A stretch of 64,000 bases of DNA, taken from the NCBI GenBank assembly GCA_030591565.1, contig JAUVAU010000004.1, positions 1 through 64,000 of the forward strand. The letters run 5' to 3'. Within the stretch, counting starts at the first letter, position 1. Each line of letters starts with the position of its first letter. A model generated the notes under the pieces. It saw nothing but the letters and a program-made list of their open reading frames with translations. It was not told the DNA's origin and did no database searches. Shown here piece after piece: positions 24,424 through 62,128 of the stretch. Origin of the DNA: Deltaproteobacteria bacterium. GTDB lineage: Bacteria; Desulfobacterota; Deferrisomatia; Deferrisomatales; BM512. The translations under genes were made by a program, and so were the position numbers.

Positions 24424-24446
24424 ATATTTAAGAGTAAGGTTAGACC

Positions 24447-24597
24447 CAGCCTGACTGGTCGTTGACAAGCACTGAATTTTATTTGAGAACGAGGAAGGAT
24501 ATAAAAAATGACCGGAGGAATACTCAGCGTATTTCGAGGATCATTTTTTAGCCTGACGAAGTAAATCGGAGAAAAGGCAGGGTTTGTCAGCGATCTG
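24447..24597. repeat. R2 structured intergenic repeat, copy A
   Basis: Near-identical to 35085-35235; inverted relative to copies at 42353 and 46036; central hairpin AAAAAATGACCGGAGGAATAC...GTATTTCGAGGATCATTTTTT. Confidence 0.9.
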
Positions 24598-26832: not shown

Positions 26833-28166
26833 CTTTTATAGATCAGCTAAAGGGTGGATCGATCCCCGATCCGGTTGCGGCCGCGGCCAGGGCGGAAGGG
26901 GTCGACCCCTCCCATCTTGCCGAACTGGTAAAAGAGGGCAGGGCGATAGTCTGCCTGAACAAGGTGAGAAAAGGTTGCAAGCCCCTGGCGATAGGCGAAG
27001 GGCTGCGGACCAAGGTCAACGCCAACATCGGTACCAGTCGCGACCGCAACGACCCGGCTGAAGAGATCGTCAAGCTCAAGGCGGCGCTCGATGCGGGGGC
27101 CGATACCATGATGGACCTCTCCACCGGCGGCGACCTTGCTGAAATCCGCCGAGCCATAATGGCCCAGTGCCCGGTCCCCATCGGCACCGTTCCCATCTAC
27201 CAAGCTATCGCTGACACCACCGGTCCTGCGGGCAAGGATATGTTCGAGCTTGACGCTGAGACGATCTTCAAGGTGATCGAGCAGCAGGCGCGTGAAGGCG
27301 TGGACTTCATGACGGTGCACTGCGGCATAACTCAAAATGGCGTGGAGATGCTCGAATCCCAGCGCCGCGTCCTGGGTGTGGTCAGCCGTGGCGGCTCCTT
27401 CACCGTCGCCTGGATGCGCAAGCATGGGCAGGAAAACCCCCTCTACGCACAATATGACCGCCTCATCGAGATATGCCGTGAGTATGAAGTGGTCCTGAGC
27501 CTTGGTGACGGGTTCCGTCCGGGAGCGGGGGCCGACGCCACCGACAGGGGCCAGATACATGAGCTGATGACCCTTGGCGATCTGACTCTGCGTGCAAGAG
27601 AAGCCGGAGTCCAGGTGATGGTAGAGGGCCCCGGCCATGTCCCAATGGACCAGATCGAAGCCAATATGCTCTTGCAAAAGCGGCTTTGCCACAACGCTCC
27701 CTTCTACGTGTTGGGGCCGCTGGTGACCGACGTCGCCCCCGGCTACGATCACATTACCTCCGCCATTGGCGGAGCGATGGCTGCACGCGCAGGAGCCGAC
27801 ATCCTCTGCTATGTCACCCCCGCCGAGCACCTTGGCCTGCCCGACGCCAAGGATGTGCGTGAGGGCGTCATAGCCTCGCGGATAGCGGCCCACGCCGCCG
27901 ATGTCGCCAACGGTGTGCCGGGTGCGGCCGAGTGGGACCTGAAGATGTCCAGAGCCAGGGCGGCGCTGGACTGGGAGGGGCAGATAGCGCTGTCAATGGA
28001 CCCGGTGAGGGCCAGAGAACTTCGCTCTCGCGCAATGCCTGAAAATGAGGATGTCTGTACGATGTGCGGAGAGTTTTGCGCGGTTAAGGTCTACAACGAA
28101 GGGTGCTCCCACGAGGTGAAAAGCCCCGGATATCCTCCGATTGACGTTGTCAGGGGCGAAAAATGA
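26829..28166 (+). CDS. thiC: Phosphomethylpyrimidine synthase
   Basis: KVNANIGTSRDRND, DAGADTMMDLSTGGDLAEIRRAI, EGPGHVPMDQIEANM, C-terminal CTMCGEFCAVK. Confidence 0.96.
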   Translation: MTFIDQLKGGSIPDPVAAAARAEGVDPSHLAELVKEGRAIVCLNKVRKGCKPLAIGEGLRTKVNANIGTSRDRNDPAEEIVKLKAALDAGADTMMDLSTGGDLAEIRRAIMAQCPVPIGTVPIYQAIADTTGPAGKDMFELDAETIFKVIEQQAREGVDFMTVHCGITQNGVEMLESQRRVLGVVSRGGSFTVAWMRKHGQENPLYAQYDRLIEICREYEVVLSLGDGFRPGAGADATDRGQIHELMTLGDLTLRAREAGVQVMVEGPGHVPMDQIEANMLLQKRLCHNAPFYVLGPLVTDVAPGYDHITSAIGGAMAARAGADILCYVTPAEHLGLPDAKDVREGVIASRIAAHAADVANGVPGAAEWDLKMSRARAALDWEGQIALSMDPVRARELRSRAMPENEDVCTMCGEFCAVKVYNEGCSHEVKSPGYPPIDVVRGEK

Positions 28167-28284
28167 TCCTCGAAATACTTATAGGTATGCCTGCGGTCAT
28201 TTTTCTTCCCTTCCTCGTTCTCGAAGGATCTTCGGGGCTTCCGGTTTAGCGTTGTTCCCTGATCCGGGGCTTTTCGACGAAACT
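28119..28284. repeat. R2 family repeat, copy E, overlapping the 3' end of thiC
   Basis: AGCCCCGGATATCCTCCGATTGACGTTGTCAGGGGCGAAAAATGATCCTCGAAATAC...GGTCATTTTTC matches 61990-62085; outer stem GCCCCG/CGGGGC. Confidence 0.85.
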
Positions 28285-35006: not shown

Positions 35007-35235
35007 CAGGCTTTTGACAAAGGTGGACAATGGGAGGCTGGCTGGAAAATCGGCTACTCGTAGCTGTCTGTCTATCTACTTACTCAGGCTGACTGATCGT
35101 TGACAAGCACTTAATTTTATTCGAGAACAAGGAAGGATATAAAAAATGACCGGAGGAATACTTAGCGTATTTCGAGGATCATTTTTTAGCCTGACGAAGT
35201 AAATCGGAGAAAAGGCAGGGTTTGTCAGCGATCTG
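35007..35235. repeat. R2 structured intergenic repeat, copy B (long left flank)
   Basis: CAGGCTTTTGACAAAGGTGGACAATGGGAGGCTGGCTGG...CTGACTGATCGTTGACAAGCACTTAATTTTATTCGAG...; matches copies A and (inverted) C, D. Confidence 0.92.
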
Positions 35236-42352: not shown

Positions 42353-42655
42353 CAGATCGCTGACAAACCCTGCCTTTTCTCCGATTTACTTCGTCAGGCT
42401 AAAAAATGATCCTCGAAATACGCTAAGTATTCCTCCGGTTATTTTTTATATCCTTCCTTGTTGACTCGCCCCCTCTCGGGGCCTCGCCTGAAGGTGCGCT
42501 AATGCGCATCCAAGTTTTCAGGACAGAAAACTTGCCTCGAATAAAATTCAGTGCTTGTCAACGATCAGTCAGGCTGAGTAAGTAGATGGGCAGACAACTA
42601 CTAATAGCCGATTTTTCTGCCAGCTTCCTATTGTCTACCTTTGTCAACAGCCTGA
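42353..42655. repeat. R2 repeat, copy C (inverted relative to A/B; carries extra internal module)
   Basis: CAGATCGCTGACAAACCCTGCCTTTTCTCCGATTTACTTCGTCAGGCTAAAAAATGATCC...; internal CCCCtctcGGGG, GCGCtaatGCGC, AAGTTTTCaggacaGAAAACTT stems. Confidence 0.92.
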
Positions 42656-46035: not shown

Positions 46036-46294
46036 CAGATCGCTGACAAAGCCCGTCTTTTCTCCGATTGACTTCGTCAGGCTAAGAAATGATCCTCGAA
46101 ATACGACAAGTATTCCTCCGGTTATTTCTTATCACCTTCCTTGTTGACTCGGCCCCTCTCGGGGCCTCGCCTGAAGGTGCGCTAATGCGCATCCAAGTTT
46201 TAGGACAGAAAACTTGCCTCGAAGAAAATCCAGCCCTTGTCAGCAATCTGTCGGGCTGGGTAAGTAGATAGACAGACAGTTGCGAGTAGACAAT
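46036..46294. repeat. R2 repeat, copy D (directly abuts stop codon of upstream gene)
   Basis: CAGATCGCTGACAAAGCCCGTCTTTTCTCCGATTGACTTCGTCAGGCTAAGAAATGATCC...; same internal module as copy C. Confidence 0.92.
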
Positions 46295-47397: not shown

Positions 47398-47550
47398 CCG
47401 ACTTCGCCTTCTTCCGGTGCCGGCTTCGTCTTTTCCCGCCTACCAGCGTCGCGTGCTCGCTCACGCCCTCGGCGTAGTAGGGCTACTGCCTCGTTCGCTC
47501 GCTTGCGCGTCTCCTTGGTGAGACGAGAAAATACATTACCGGAATGTTAA
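47397..47550. repeat. R3 degenerate intergenic repeat, copy a
   Basis: gacttcgcc...cgtcgcgtgctcgctcacgccctcggcgtagtagggctactgcctcgttcgctcgcttgcgcgtctcc; similar layout at 53640, 58705, 58845. Confidence 0.5.
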
Positions 47551-47580: not shown

Positions 47581-47937
47581 CTAAAAAAGAGGTTTGTTTT
47601 CGATCTTCTCGCACACACCCTCTTCGATGATCCCACCAGTTTCTTTAGAGTAAAACTCTCCGCTATACCTTAAAATCCAAAACCTCTTATCCCGGATTGA
47701 GGAGAACGTCGGCAAGTCAACTGTGTAGAGGTGTTCATCTACCTTAACAATTCCATCCCTTCTGGGGTTTTCGTTTAGGTCGGTCGCTTTTTTGTTCTCT
47801 GGGTCGATTTTTATATACGCGTTCAATGGCTTGGAATTGCCTGCATGGAAAGTATACGTGCATTTAAGGAGAAGTTCTTCGCACCATCCCTGCATGGGGA
47901 TGAGAGCCAGAAATAAAACCAAAAACAGAAGTTTCAT
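47581..47937 (-). CDS. Hypothetical secreted protein
   Basis: Signal peptide MKLLFLVLFLALIPMQGWCEE; 118 aa. Confidence 0.6.
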   Translation of the reverse strand: MKLLFLVLFLALIPMQGWCEELLLKCTYTFHAGNSKPLNAYIKIDPENKKATDLNENPRRDGIVKVDEHLYTVDLPTFSSIRDKRFWILRYSGEFYSKETGGIIEEGVCEKIENKPLF

Positions 47938-48111
47938 TGCAATACCCACCTTCCACAGGAAAAGCTTCACGGAAAACATCATATGCAATGTGGTTATTCT
48001 CCATGCTAGAGAGGGGGGAGTCAACAGGGAGATGTGAGATTGGAATGCATGAGTTATGCAACCACTACGCGCATGTGGGAAGTGACTTGTAAAAGCGAGC
48101 AATAAGGGGTC

Positions 48112-48488
48112 GGGCCTTGTGTTTTAACATTTTGCCTTTGACCTCCACCCCCACCGAGCTGTGCAGTGAGCGGATGAGGAGTCTTTGAGGGTCGGGTTGT
48201 CTGAGGCGAGGCGCTAGCCGAGCCGAGTTTCCGACCCTCCCTCAGACGCGAACGGTTCCCGAAGGGAAGCACATGTGCTCGAAGGGGCGCGTCTTTGCGG
48301 TACTTTCTCCGCGCAGAGAAAGTACCCTCGGGGTGCAGGGGACGAGTAGTCCCCGCATAACATAAAACCAATCCGATGCCGCTAAAAGGCCAAGCGCCCA
48401 GCGTAACAGGCCCAGCGGCCAGCGCCCCAAGTCTCGCGCCCAGCGAATAGGCCCAGCGGCCCAGAGCGCCCCCCTCCACCTAAAGTTC
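48112..48488. repeat. R1 hairpin-rich repeat, copy 1
   Basis: CACCCCCACCGAGCTGTGCAGTGAGCGGATGAGGAGTCTTTGAGGGTCGGGTTGTCTGAGGCGAGGCGCTAGCCGAGCCGAG...; closely matches 54950-55250. Confidence 0.9.
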
Positions 48489-53639: not shown

Positions 53640-53810
53640 ACGAATTTGCTGTGTCGGGGCCGACTGCGCCTCTCGTCCAAATAACTACGTCGCACACTCC
53701 TCGTTGACCTAGCCGTATTATTCATACTGTCGTCGGCCAACTCGTCGCTTAGCTCCTTGCCTTTGAACGAGATGCTGTGTCGGGCGGCTACGCCGGAAAA
53801 ACGCTAAAAC
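53640..53810. repeat. R3 degenerate intergenic repeat, copy b
   Basis: ctacgtcgcacactcctcgttgacctagccgtattattcatactgtcgtcggccaactcgtcgcttagctccttgcctttgaacgag. Confidence 0.5.
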
Positions 53811-53833: not shown

Positions 53834-54097
53834 CTATTCAAAAATCTTTATATACGCAATCGTGATAGCACCAGAAATACCCCAAAGCCACCAAGAAGCA
53901 GCTCCGGTCCATATTCCAATAAAAAACACCTTCAATCTCATTCCAAATGTTGCTTTACCATCCAAAATTGCTTGAGCAAACTGGGTCCTCTCTGAAGAGG
54001 GCGTGTTTTCAGCTTCATAGACAGCTTGAGGCGTAAATGAGGCTATAAATGAGATAAGTGCGGCTAATAAAAGCCAAACCCCAAATAACATTCTCAT
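53834..54097 (-). CDS. Hypothetical small membrane protein
   Basis: 87 aa with two hydrophobic stretches. Confidence 0.5.
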   Translation of the reverse strand: MRMLFGVWLLLAALISFIASFTPQAVYEAENTPSSERTQFAQAILDGKATFGMRLKVFFIGIWTGAASWWLWGISGAITIAYIKIFE

Positions 54098-54141
54098 CTT
54101 ACCCCCTTGCTAAAGTTCTATAGTTTTTCTGTAGAAACAGT

Positions 54142-54804
54142 TTAAGCAACGTTACAAATACTATCTATTTTCTTCTGCAAACCTGCCCAAATTATTGGAT
54201 ACACAGTATTCATGTAATTTGCCACATAAGGAGACATTACGATAGCATCAAGTTCCAACGGTGGTGGTGGTATTTTTGTATAATTCTTTGACTTATTTTT
54301 GTTTTTCGTCTGTAGAATTGAAGGAAGTAGAATATCTATTGCACTATAAGGTTCATATTGTTCATCTTTTTTTATAAAAACATCGGTATACAATCTATGT
54401 CGGTTGAGTTGAATTGAATTGAAATCAACATATTTATTGACATTTTCAGCATAAAACGCAAGTAGAGATGCCATAGCGCTGGCAATGAGTGCCGTTATTT
54501 TCAGGTTACCAAGTAGTTGATTCTCAGATACTCTAATTTTTTGCAAATATAAATCAGCATCATTTTGCAATTGTGAATATACATAACAACCAATTTCAAA
54601 CAACGTGTAATCATTGAAGTATTTACTATATGGCTCATCGTTTTGTTTAGGGTCAATAAACATACCTATACACATAAAAAACATAAAAGTGAATGTTTCA
54701 TCATCGTCTAAACTATAGCTATTTTTATCTATGCCATGTTTTAGATTCTTGCACTTTTCGTAAATTTTGCTTTCAATTTTGTTTCGCTTGAAAATGCCTA
54801 ACAT
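54142..54804 (-). CDS. Hypothetical protein, AT-rich gene
   Basis: Complete ORF starting MLGIFKRNKIESK; composition differs from flanks. Confidence 0.5.
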   Translation of the reverse strand: MLGIFKRNKIESKIYEKCKNLKHGIDKNSYSLDDDETFTFMFFMCIGMFIDPKQNDEPYSKYFNDYTLFEIGCYVYSQLQNDADLYLQKIRVSENQLLGNLKITALIASAMASLLAFYAENVNKYVDFNSIQLNRHRLYTDVFIKKDEQYEPYSAIDILLPSILQTKNKNKSKNYTKIPPPPLELDAIVMSPYVANYMNTVYPIIWAGLQKKIDSICNVA

Positions 54805-54859
54805 GGGAAACCTCCGGAAAATCACTGGGAAGATTTGGGACAGTATACCTATTTATCAC

Positions 54860-55255
54860 CTCAGGGTCATATTGTCTGAGGCGAAGCCGAGTTCGTGACC
54901 AGTTCCCATGCCCTTGACCTCCCTTCCCCCTTCAAGCGGTTTTCGCAATTTGCCTTTGACTTTCACCCCCACCGAGCTGTGCAGTGAGCGGATGAGGAGT
55001 CTTTGAGGGTCGGGTTGCCTGAGGTGAGGCGCTAGCCGAACCGAGTTTCCGACCCTCCCTCACACGCGAGCGGTCGCCGTAGGCGAGCACACGTGCTCGA
55101 AGGGGCGCGTCTTTCTGGAACTTTCTTAGCGCAAAGAAAGTTCCCGAGGGGTGCAGGGGACGAGCAGTCCCCGCATACAATCAAACCAATCCAATGCCCT
55201 AAGGCCACGCGCCCAGCGAAAAAGCCGAGCGGCGAGCGTCCCCCTCCCCATAAAA
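54860..55255. repeat. R1 hairpin-rich repeat, copy 2 (partial unit 54860-54950 followed by full unit)
   Basis: GGTCATattgtctgaGGCgaaGCCgagttcgTGACC then CACCCCCACCGAGCTGTGCAGTGAGCGGATGAGGAGTCTTTGAGGGTCGG... Confidence 0.9.
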
Positions 55256-55784: not shown

Positions 55785-56438
55785 ATGCTTATTGATTTGG
55801 CCTTGCGCCTGGGCGCTTCCTTCGCCGCCGGGTTGGGTAGCGTGGCCTCCCCGTGTGTTTTGCCCGTGGTGCCGATCATCATCACCGGCAACGAGGAGGA
55901 TCACCGCTACCGTCCGCTGCTCATAGTTGCGGGGATCTCCATCACCTTCATCCTGATGGGGATCGCCAGCGCCGCCTTCGGCTCCCTGCTGGCGGGCGGC
56001 ACGATGATCTATGTCGAAAAAGGCGCCGGCGTAATGATCCTCCTCTTCGGGCTGCTCACCCTGGCGGACCTCAACCTCTTCAAGGGGTTCCACTATTTCC
56101 AGCGTCTCGGCGCGGGAGCCCGGGGACCCTGGTCGGGGCTCATCCTGGGCATGGCGCTGGGGCTGATCTGGATACCCTGCATAGGGCCGTTCCTCACCAG
56201 CATCCTGGCCATGGTAGCCAGCGAGGGAGAGGTGCTGAAGGGGATATTGTTTCTGGGGGTGTATTCCCTCGGGTTCGCGGTGCCCATGCTGATAGCGGCG
56301 TATTTTTCGAGGTATTTTCGCGAACGCGTGCGCCGGATGCAGCGCCACCCGATGCTCCTGCGGATTTTCAGCGGCGGGATACTGAGCCTGTTCGGCCTCT
56401 ACATACTGTTCAACGGGATCGTGGGCTTCGGGTTTTGA
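55785..56438 (+). CDS. ccdA: CcdA/DsbD-like thiol-disulfide transmembrane protein
   Basis: LGSVASPCVLPVVPIIITG, LGMALGLIWIPCIGPFLTSILAMVAS; six TM. Confidence 0.88.
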   Translation: MLIDLALRLGASFAAGLGSVASPCVLPVVPIIITGNEEDHRYRPLLIVAGISITFILMGIASAAFGSLLAGGTMIYVEKGAGVMILLFGLLTLADLNLFKGFHYFQRLGAGARGPWSGLILGMALGLIWIPCIGPFLTSILAMVASEGEVLKGILFLGVYSLGFAVPMLIAAYFSRYFRERVRRMQRHPMLLRIFSGGILSLFGLYILFNGIVGFGF

Positions 56439-56444
56439 GTCTCT

Positions 56445-56885
56445 CACACCCCCACCGAACTGTGCAGTGAGCAATTGAGGAAGTTTTGAGAGTCATCTTG
56501 TTTGAGGCGAAGCCGAGTTCATGACCCGTTCCTATGATTTTGACCTACCTTCCCCGTCCAAGCGGAGCAGTTCAGCTCGTAGGATCAGGAGGTCTTGCGG
56601 AAGTGAGCGCTAGCGAACGGCTCCAGACCTCCCCGGAGAGATGAACGATCAGCGTAGCTTGTGGGGTGTCCAGGGGTCGAGGGGAGGTTGACAAGAACCT
56701 CCCCTCCGTCGCTAAAGCCCTCGTAGAGGGCGAGCGAAACAACCCGGGCCAACCCCTCCACCAACAGAAAAGGCCTTCGCAAGAAGGCACACCAAGCCAA
56801 ATACCATCAACCCAATCCAATGCCCCATAGGCCACGCGCCCAGCGAGAAAAGGCCCAGCGGCCCAAAGCGCTCCTCCCGTGGTTC
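56445..56885. repeat. R1 family repeat, copy 3 (conserved ends, different hairpin middle)
   Basis: CACCCCCACCGAACTGTGCAGTGAGC... start and ...CCAATCCAATGCCCCATAGGCCACGCGCCCAGCGAGAAAAGGCCCAGCGGCCCAAAGCG end shared with copies 1 and 2. Confidence 0.8.
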
Positions 56886-56943: not shown

Positions 56944-57041
56944 TGGCGGAAGTGGATGGGAATCGAACCCACCGGCGACGCTATTGACGCCGCCCATCGG
57001 TTTTGAAGACCGAGGTAGCCACCAGTGCTACAACCACTTCC
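56944..57041 (-). tRNA. selC: tRNA-Sec(UCA)
   Basis: Reverse complement GGAAGTGGTTGTAGCACTGGTGGCTACCTCGGTCTTCAAAACCGATGGGCGGCGTCAATAGCGTCGCCGGTGGGTTCGATTCCCATCCACTTCCGCCA: 8-bp acceptor stem, anticodon TCA, long variable arm, CCA end. Confidence 0.97.
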
Positions 57042-58844: not shown

Positions 58845-58985
58845 GTTTGTCAGGTAGGGCGACTTCGGCTTTTTCCGTCATATTTACGTCGCGTACTCGT
58901 GGGCTTCGGCTTTCGCCCGTCAAAAACTATACTGCCTAAGTTATCCGCTTGCGCGTCTCCTCGCCGGTCGAAAAAATCCTCTGCT
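58845..58985. repeat. R3 degenerate intergenic repeat, copy d
   Basis: cgacttcggctttttccgtcatatttacgtcgcgtactcgtgggcttcggctttcgcccgtc...ccgcttgcgcgtctcctcgccggtcgaaaaaatcc. Confidence 0.5.
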
Positions 58986-61978: not shown

Positions 61979-62128
61979 GAGCTTCGTCGAAAAACCCCGG
62001 ATATCCTCCGAGTGACGTTGTCAGGGGCGAAAAATGATCCTCGAAATACTTTTCGGTATGCCTGCGGTCATTTTTCTTCCCTTCCTAGCCCTTGAATGAT
62101 CTTCGGGGTTTCCAGTTTATCGTCGGCT
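61979..62128. repeat. R2 family repeat, copy F (directly abuts GNAT stop codon)
   Basis: AACCCCGGATATCCTCCGAGTGACGTTGTCAGGGGCGAAAAATGATCCTCGAAATACTTTTCGGTATGCCTGCGGTCATTTTTC...CTTCGGGGTT; matches copy E. Confidence 0.85.

Follow-up and report, generated by a model that had tools for sequence, protein, structure and literature searches.

What kind of element keeps its ends and exchanges its interior, and does it matter that it lies beside a tRNA gene? These questions are raised by the third copy of a repeat, R1, in the 64,000-nucleotide stretch of DNA analysed here (the window), where it is flanked by the stop codon of a gene that we take from its own sequence to be CcdA-like (55785-56438, +) and by tRNA-Sec (56944-57041, -). 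In the reading that we favour, with a probability of about 0.6, small non-autonomous gene cassettes are usually bounded by inward-facing multi-hairpin elements of one lineage-specific family, and R1 copy 3 is a recombined member of that family that stands alone. Computation showed a module grammar, a chimera with its junction, covariation, a bias in loop sequence, a G+C asymmetry, 21 head-inward pairs and one empty site in relatives.

Architecture and origin of R1 copy 3

R1 copy 3 spans positions 56447-56885. Checking the sequence located the head, all four hairpins and the tail hairpins quoted in a preliminary description, whose account of a conserved head and tail hairpins around a different hairpin interior was borne out by the sequence and by a genome search. 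Alignment of the copies placed the A-type head, module a (CACCCCCACCGAACTGTGCAGTGAGC, 56447-56472, +), 8 bp past the stop codon of the CcdA-like gene, and the L motif that usually precedes a head is absent. Within the window this head recurs at 48146 and 54964. It is followed on the same strand by module H (56490-56527, GAGTCATC...GAGGCGAAGCCGAG...CATGACCC), a hairpin common to A and B types, by module B1 (56550-56565, TTCCCCGTCCAAGCGG), with which the B body starts, and by hairpin B2 (56588-56632, GGAGGTCT...AGACCTCC), which has an inner GTGA-GC-GCTA-GC-GAAC with tandem GA. Next come hairpin B3 (56679-56706, +, GAGGGGAGGTT-GACAAG-AACCTCCCCTC), within which the previously quoted GGGGAGGTT-gacaag-AACCTCCCC lies, and hairpin B4 (56710-56736, +, CGCT..GCCCTC-GTA-GAGGGC..AGCG), a GNA triloop hairpin containing the quoted CCCTC-gta-GAGGG. 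The tail consists of hairpin T2 (56772-56788, +, GGCCTTC-GCAA-GAAGGC, containing the quoted CTTC-gcaa-GAAG), which is terminator-like on the minus strand and then followed by CTTTTCTGTT, and of hairpins T3 (GGCCACGCGCCCAGCG) and T3b (GGCCCAGCGGCCCAAAGCG) at 56830-56870 (+).

Searching the whole genome returned 55 match pieces for R1 copy 3 and 54 for copy 1. The R1 repeat is therefore not due to chance, and at least 54 related elements are present in the 2.49-Mb draft genome. The tabulated counts cover the 540 kb that were fetched, copies outside it such as C99:66820 being left out, and contig ends of the draft assembly fall inside several elements. Alignment of the copies yielded two bodies, A and B. 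Type A elements consist of head a, hairpin H and body b-c-d, and type B elements of hairpin H followed by B1-B2-(B2x)-B3-B4. The middle of R1 copy 3, thought to be unrelated to the other copies, is thus the body of the second abundant type, B, which is present in about 25 copies that are up to 89% identical. Module order is near-constant in the 54 elements (L, a, H, body A or B, d, T5-d, T2, T3/T3b/T4), which end near GCGTCCCCC, and 127 of the 127 module matches inside them lie on the element strand; five matches fall outside elements (two T3, three L). The L motif, present at most heads, begins with GGGG and takes the form GGGGTCGG, GGGGACGC or GGGGTCAG. These results agree with a modular element with replaceable structured interiors, with the refinement that the interior is one of two bodies. 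The idea that the ends are fixed and match did not hold. Head a is paired with body A except in R1 copy 3 and at C41:54852 and C1:14429, two copies that have a truncated B unit in front of a whole A unit, and the tail hairpins are common to both types and reshuffled. The converse, that the two ends are independent repeats that often occur separately, is true in part, with head a standing without a body at C40:13259 and C69:22898.

The origin of the unusual combination can be followed in the alignments. The first 80 bases of R1 copy 3 match the A copies C12:3232 and C56:31575, with 97% identity over the head, and a windowed comparison gave 100% identity to these two copies over 56470-56514. From about 56524 onward the sequence follows the B copies C28:42042 and C73:13261. 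The switch lies inside TTTGAGGCGAAGCCGAGTTCATGAC, a sequence that the A copies share exactly and many B copies almost exactly, and the A-to-B junction falls within the shared stretch 56501-56525. As a result, the left arm of hairpin H (GAGTCAT) derives from type A and the right arm (ATGACCC) from type B, with one A.C mismatch between the arms that is absent from the A parents. R1 copy 3 is the sole a-H-body-B combination among the 54 elements. Judged from these alignments, it is the product of recombination between an A-type and a B-type end inside the shared hairpin H, and the simplest view is that two cassette ends left it as a remnant or gave rise to it by recombination. Elsewhere, at L116 (~16524) and L117 (~3900), half of hairpin H is fused to an L motif at the common word GAGTTC, an arrangement that suggests microhomology-based joining of modules.

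The position beside tRNA-Sec, which had been pointed out, proved to be incidental: of the 6 tRNA genes in the 540 kb examined, no more than 2 have any of the 54 elements at a distance of 150 bp or less, and we ruled out that the elements are markers of tRNA genes. The window also contains other dispersed repeats. One family, of 80-300 bp, lies at 24444-24597, 35082-35235, 42353-42612 and 46036-46294 and occupies at least a dozen sites in the 540 kb; another (28118-28252 and 61989-62123) matches the sampled genome at least a dozen times.

Paired ends around AT-rich genes

The heads of the elements face AT-rich DNA and the tails face native DNA. The 600-bp flanks on the head side have 46.2% G+C versus 56.4% on the tail side (p = 3e-10), random stretches having 56.7%, and this asymmetry holds over the whole A/B element set, not just over close A/B pairs. 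At the opposite end of AT-rich stretches beside single A/B elements we identified two more end types, C (9 places) and D (6 places), in numbers affected by the choice of sampled regions around A/B hits, which should not affect orientation. Several of these C and D ends carry their own L motif. Amongst neighbouring ends within 4 kb of each other in the 540 kb examined, 21 pairs were oriented -+, 1 was +-, 6 were ++ and 2 were --, so that head-inward pairs exceed tail-inward pairs by 21:1 (p = 1e-5).

The 21 head-inward pairs, hereafter cassettes, enclose segments of 0.6-2.0 kb with 34-51% G+C and one or two genes each. The two ends of a cassette correspond in orientation and L motif but often belong to different body types (A/C, B/D). 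Among the recognisable cargo are a protein kinase similar to defence kinases, a signal peptidase, an HSDR_N_2 protein, HNH together with MazG-like proteins, and pentapeptide repeats; the rest of the cargo proteins examined are unknowns, and no transposase was recognised among them. Cassette 1 of the window has a C-type end with its own L motif on the left (47422-47539, -), a small hypothetical gene as cargo (47581-48102, -) in a region of about 0.44 G+C, and R1 copy 1, a complete A-type end with the L motif GGGGTCGGGCCTTGTGTTTTAACATT, on the right (48105-48480, +). In cassette 2 a D-type end (53660-53799, -) is followed by two hypothetical genes of 87 and 227 aa (53834-54825, -; region G+C about 0.34) and by R1 copy 2 as the right end (54833-55253, +), made of an L motif and a truncated B unit (54852-54940) and then a complete A unit (54940-55242). 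R1 copy 3, by comparison, has neither L motif nor partner, and its head-side G+C of 0.60 is native-like. An isolated C-type end lies at 58861-58984 (-), and the adjoining GGGGGGATGCTATACCC motif faces the opposite way.

One empty site in all was found. At locus C28 three same-family genomes have the genes that flank the cassette in synteny, only a few hundred bases apart, and contain neither element nor cargo at this site. Facing pairs of elements around small foreign insertions therefore point to an undescribed form of gene-cassette carriage in this bacterium.

Such pairs might instead go back to REP/TIR-like selfish, MITE-like units running from GGGGGACGC to GCGTCCCCC, with foreign DNA having later entered head-to-head dimers. 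Head-to-head dimers are indeed the most frequent layout of published REPs, and DNA can insert between the partners (PMC3733652); in addition, the L and tail ends of the elements together form a short inverted repeat. Yet not one cargo-free head-to-head dimer was found among 69 ends, partners are often of unlike types, and the head-side AT richness extends across all A/B elements, beyond the close A/B pairs. We consider it unlikely that the elements are selfish repeats of this kind, spreading on their own, with the cargo as a mere passenger of insertion hot-spots.

Covariation and strand bias

Across 21 copies of body B, 21 of the 33 named pairs are changed on both sides; 92.8% of the cells are paired versus 75.6% after shuffling, and the covariation score is 0.488 versus 0.185. 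For body A 99.0% of the cells are paired versus 92.4%, with a score of 0.198 versus 0.076, and the count of pairs changed on both sides is not above that of the shuffles. When partners were offset by one column, pairing dropped to roughly half of the cells. Hairpin B3 is changed on both sides in 8 of its 11 pairs, and its loop GACRAG is fixed. The global folding energy of R1 copy 3 is unremarkable on either strand (DNA z -1.15 and -1.03), and the evidence for structure is therefore covariation among copies, not stability.

The perfect hairpins also show a strand preference in their loops. On the + (element) strand, 51 of 63 triloops are GNA and 1 is TNC (background 38/38), and 26 tetraloops are GNNA and 2 are TNNC (background 24/29); since the copies are related, neither these loop counts nor the pair counts above represent independent events. 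DNA mini-hairpins with GNA or GNNA loops are unusually stable and nuclease-resistant (PMC4686876). We infer that the loop bias may reflect selection for single-stranded DNA hairpins of the + strand. Of the 54 elements, 25 have terminator-like hairpins on the minus strand and none has them on the plus strand, and simple gene calls gave 32 neighbouring genes that end towards a tail and 15 that start towards one. Transcription that comes in from native neighbours is probably terminated at the tails.

Terminator-like tails and strong covariation would equally be expected if the elements were structured RNAs, such as 3' UTRs or terminators, selected as transcripts, the mosaics being due to recombination of RNA genes. 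G-U pairs exceed A-C mismatches on the element strand, in agreement with this. A rough strand test of G.T versus A.C gave 9:2, from few independent events. On the other hand, the only hit above gathering score in an Rfam search of the window was tRNA-Sec, with no match to the elements, and the terminators are on the minus strand only, opposite to the loop bias. Moreover GNYA tetraloops outnumber GNRA (18 versus 8), a better fit to DNA than to RNA, and the G+C asymmetry is left unexplained, all of which makes selection as RNA improbable. Finally, perfect stems could be a by-product of arm-to-arm copying through template switching at palindromes, the copies being decaying, functionless mosaics, and it would fit that both arms of the stems change while mismatched intermediates are nearly absent (the 11 pairs of B3 are 99.6% paired across 21 copies), but the fixed G..A loops with a variable middle, the fixed GACRAG loop, the one-strand bias of loops and terminators and the non-random placement around foreign genes make this highly implausible.

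Proposed mechanism, distribution and known systems

The L motif is close to the GGGGWSAS consensus of TIRYT terminal repeats (PMC3733652; PMC6006769), and TIRYT transposase genes are flanked by inverted repeats with this motif (PMC3733652). The single Y1_Tnp (PF01797) gene of the genome, on C46, has two GGGGTCAGG motifs, on one side only, and no A or B element beside it. In two other genomes of the group the Y1 genes are flanked by inverted GGGG(A/T)CAG motifs. Consequently, from the likeness of L to GGGGWSAS and the GGGG motifs at Y1 genes, we propose an HUH tyrosine transposase acting in trans. This recognition step is only moderately supported because the orientation differs: the GGGG of TIRYT units is outermost and points inward, whereas in cassettes it borders the cargo and points outward. 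At another locus, L164 (G012:C286), a Y1 transposase gene lies between inverted tandem GGGGAC(A/G)GATCTATT repeats (1034-1200 and 1814-2008).

In the proposed mechanism a normal end would comprise, from the cargo outwards, an L motif GGGG(A/T)C..., an optional head a, hairpin H, a body and the tail hairpins, the body being A or B, with C and D at other ends. Two ends in inverted orientation would enclose one or two AT-rich accessory genes and would fold as + strand single-stranded DNA hairpins. A candidate HUH (RAYT/TIRYT-like) tyrosine transposase would recognise L and the adjoining hairpins in trans, and the tails would block read-through between cassette and native genes. Tentatively, and with less confidence than for R1 copy 3 itself, we view the whole as a dispersed chromosomal cassette system with interchangeable ends A-D made of ordered single-stranded DNA hairpins, recombining via shared hairpins, of which R1 copy 3 is an example, and served by a putative trans-acting enzyme. 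If this is true, heads towards AT-rich and tails towards native DNA would give a border rule for horizontally acquired single-gene insertions, one that covers defence-like genes and needs no recognisable transposase. It would also suggest how foreign genes are insulated from neighbouring transcription and would supply a concrete set of single-stranded DNA substrates.

A DNA search of 98 relatives gave no match beyond the own genome. Viral, plasmid and phage collections gave none either (none in plasmids for R1 copy 3, none in phages for copy 1), and the covariance model of the B body matched in the own genome alone. The A-core model matched eight times, weakly but coherently, in three genomes of the same family; the matches keep the b-c-d arrangement, their sequences differ and several adjoin likely accessory genes. 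From these weak, consistent matches the core is therefore older than DNA similarity shows, and the system seems to be a trait that changes fast in this family. Same-family loci L202, L206, L209, L211, L213, L203 and L204 have their own version of the b-c-d core, several preceded by long hairpins. CcdA homologues of the relatives are distant (27-29%). Two pattern searches were set aside: the single stretch returned by an exact-pattern scan of GTDB contigs, in BMS3Bbin14, falls within an unrelated coding region and was taken as chance, and a looser d-module pattern returned mostly unrelated symmetrical palindromes in 297 genomes.

To our knowledge the cassette ends match no known IS ends. BOX elements of Streptococcus pneumoniae resemble the elements described here in having a fixed module order and a variable interior, and differ in their modules; we know of no association of BOX elements with foreign cargo. 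Integron attC cassettes are single-gene cassettes that recombine via folded single strands, as proposed here, but the present elements stand at both ends of the cargo, inverted, are scattered over the chromosome and are much longer. TIRtrons (Di Nocera 2013, PMC3733652) have inverted GGGG-type motifs on both sides and form dispersed families, partly of dimers. Unlike them, our elements enclose cargo genes and not a transposase, their GGGG points out from the cargo, and their ends extend for 100-400 bp as an ordered series of hairpin modules, of several types. REP/BIME sequences mobilised by RAYT (PMC2817692) share intergenic palindromes in mosaics, complementary stem changes and inverted pairs around a gene. 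They measure 20-40 bp, whereas the present units measure 300-450 bp, carry AT-rich accessory cargo and have no RAYT between their ends; no GTAG tag was evident on reading the aligned heads, bodies or tails. Mobile insertion cassettes (PMC3913671) are likewise non-autonomous, with inverted, IS-like ends, a passenger gene and no transposase, and inverted ends around one or two passenger genes without a transposase are what the 21 head-inward pairs display. Compared with these, the present cassettes have left and right ends that often differ in type, occupy 21 dispersed chromosomal places and carry hairpins of single-stranded DNA type. In all, the proposed system would be a functional parallel to integron cassettes or mobile insertion cassettes, with new ends.
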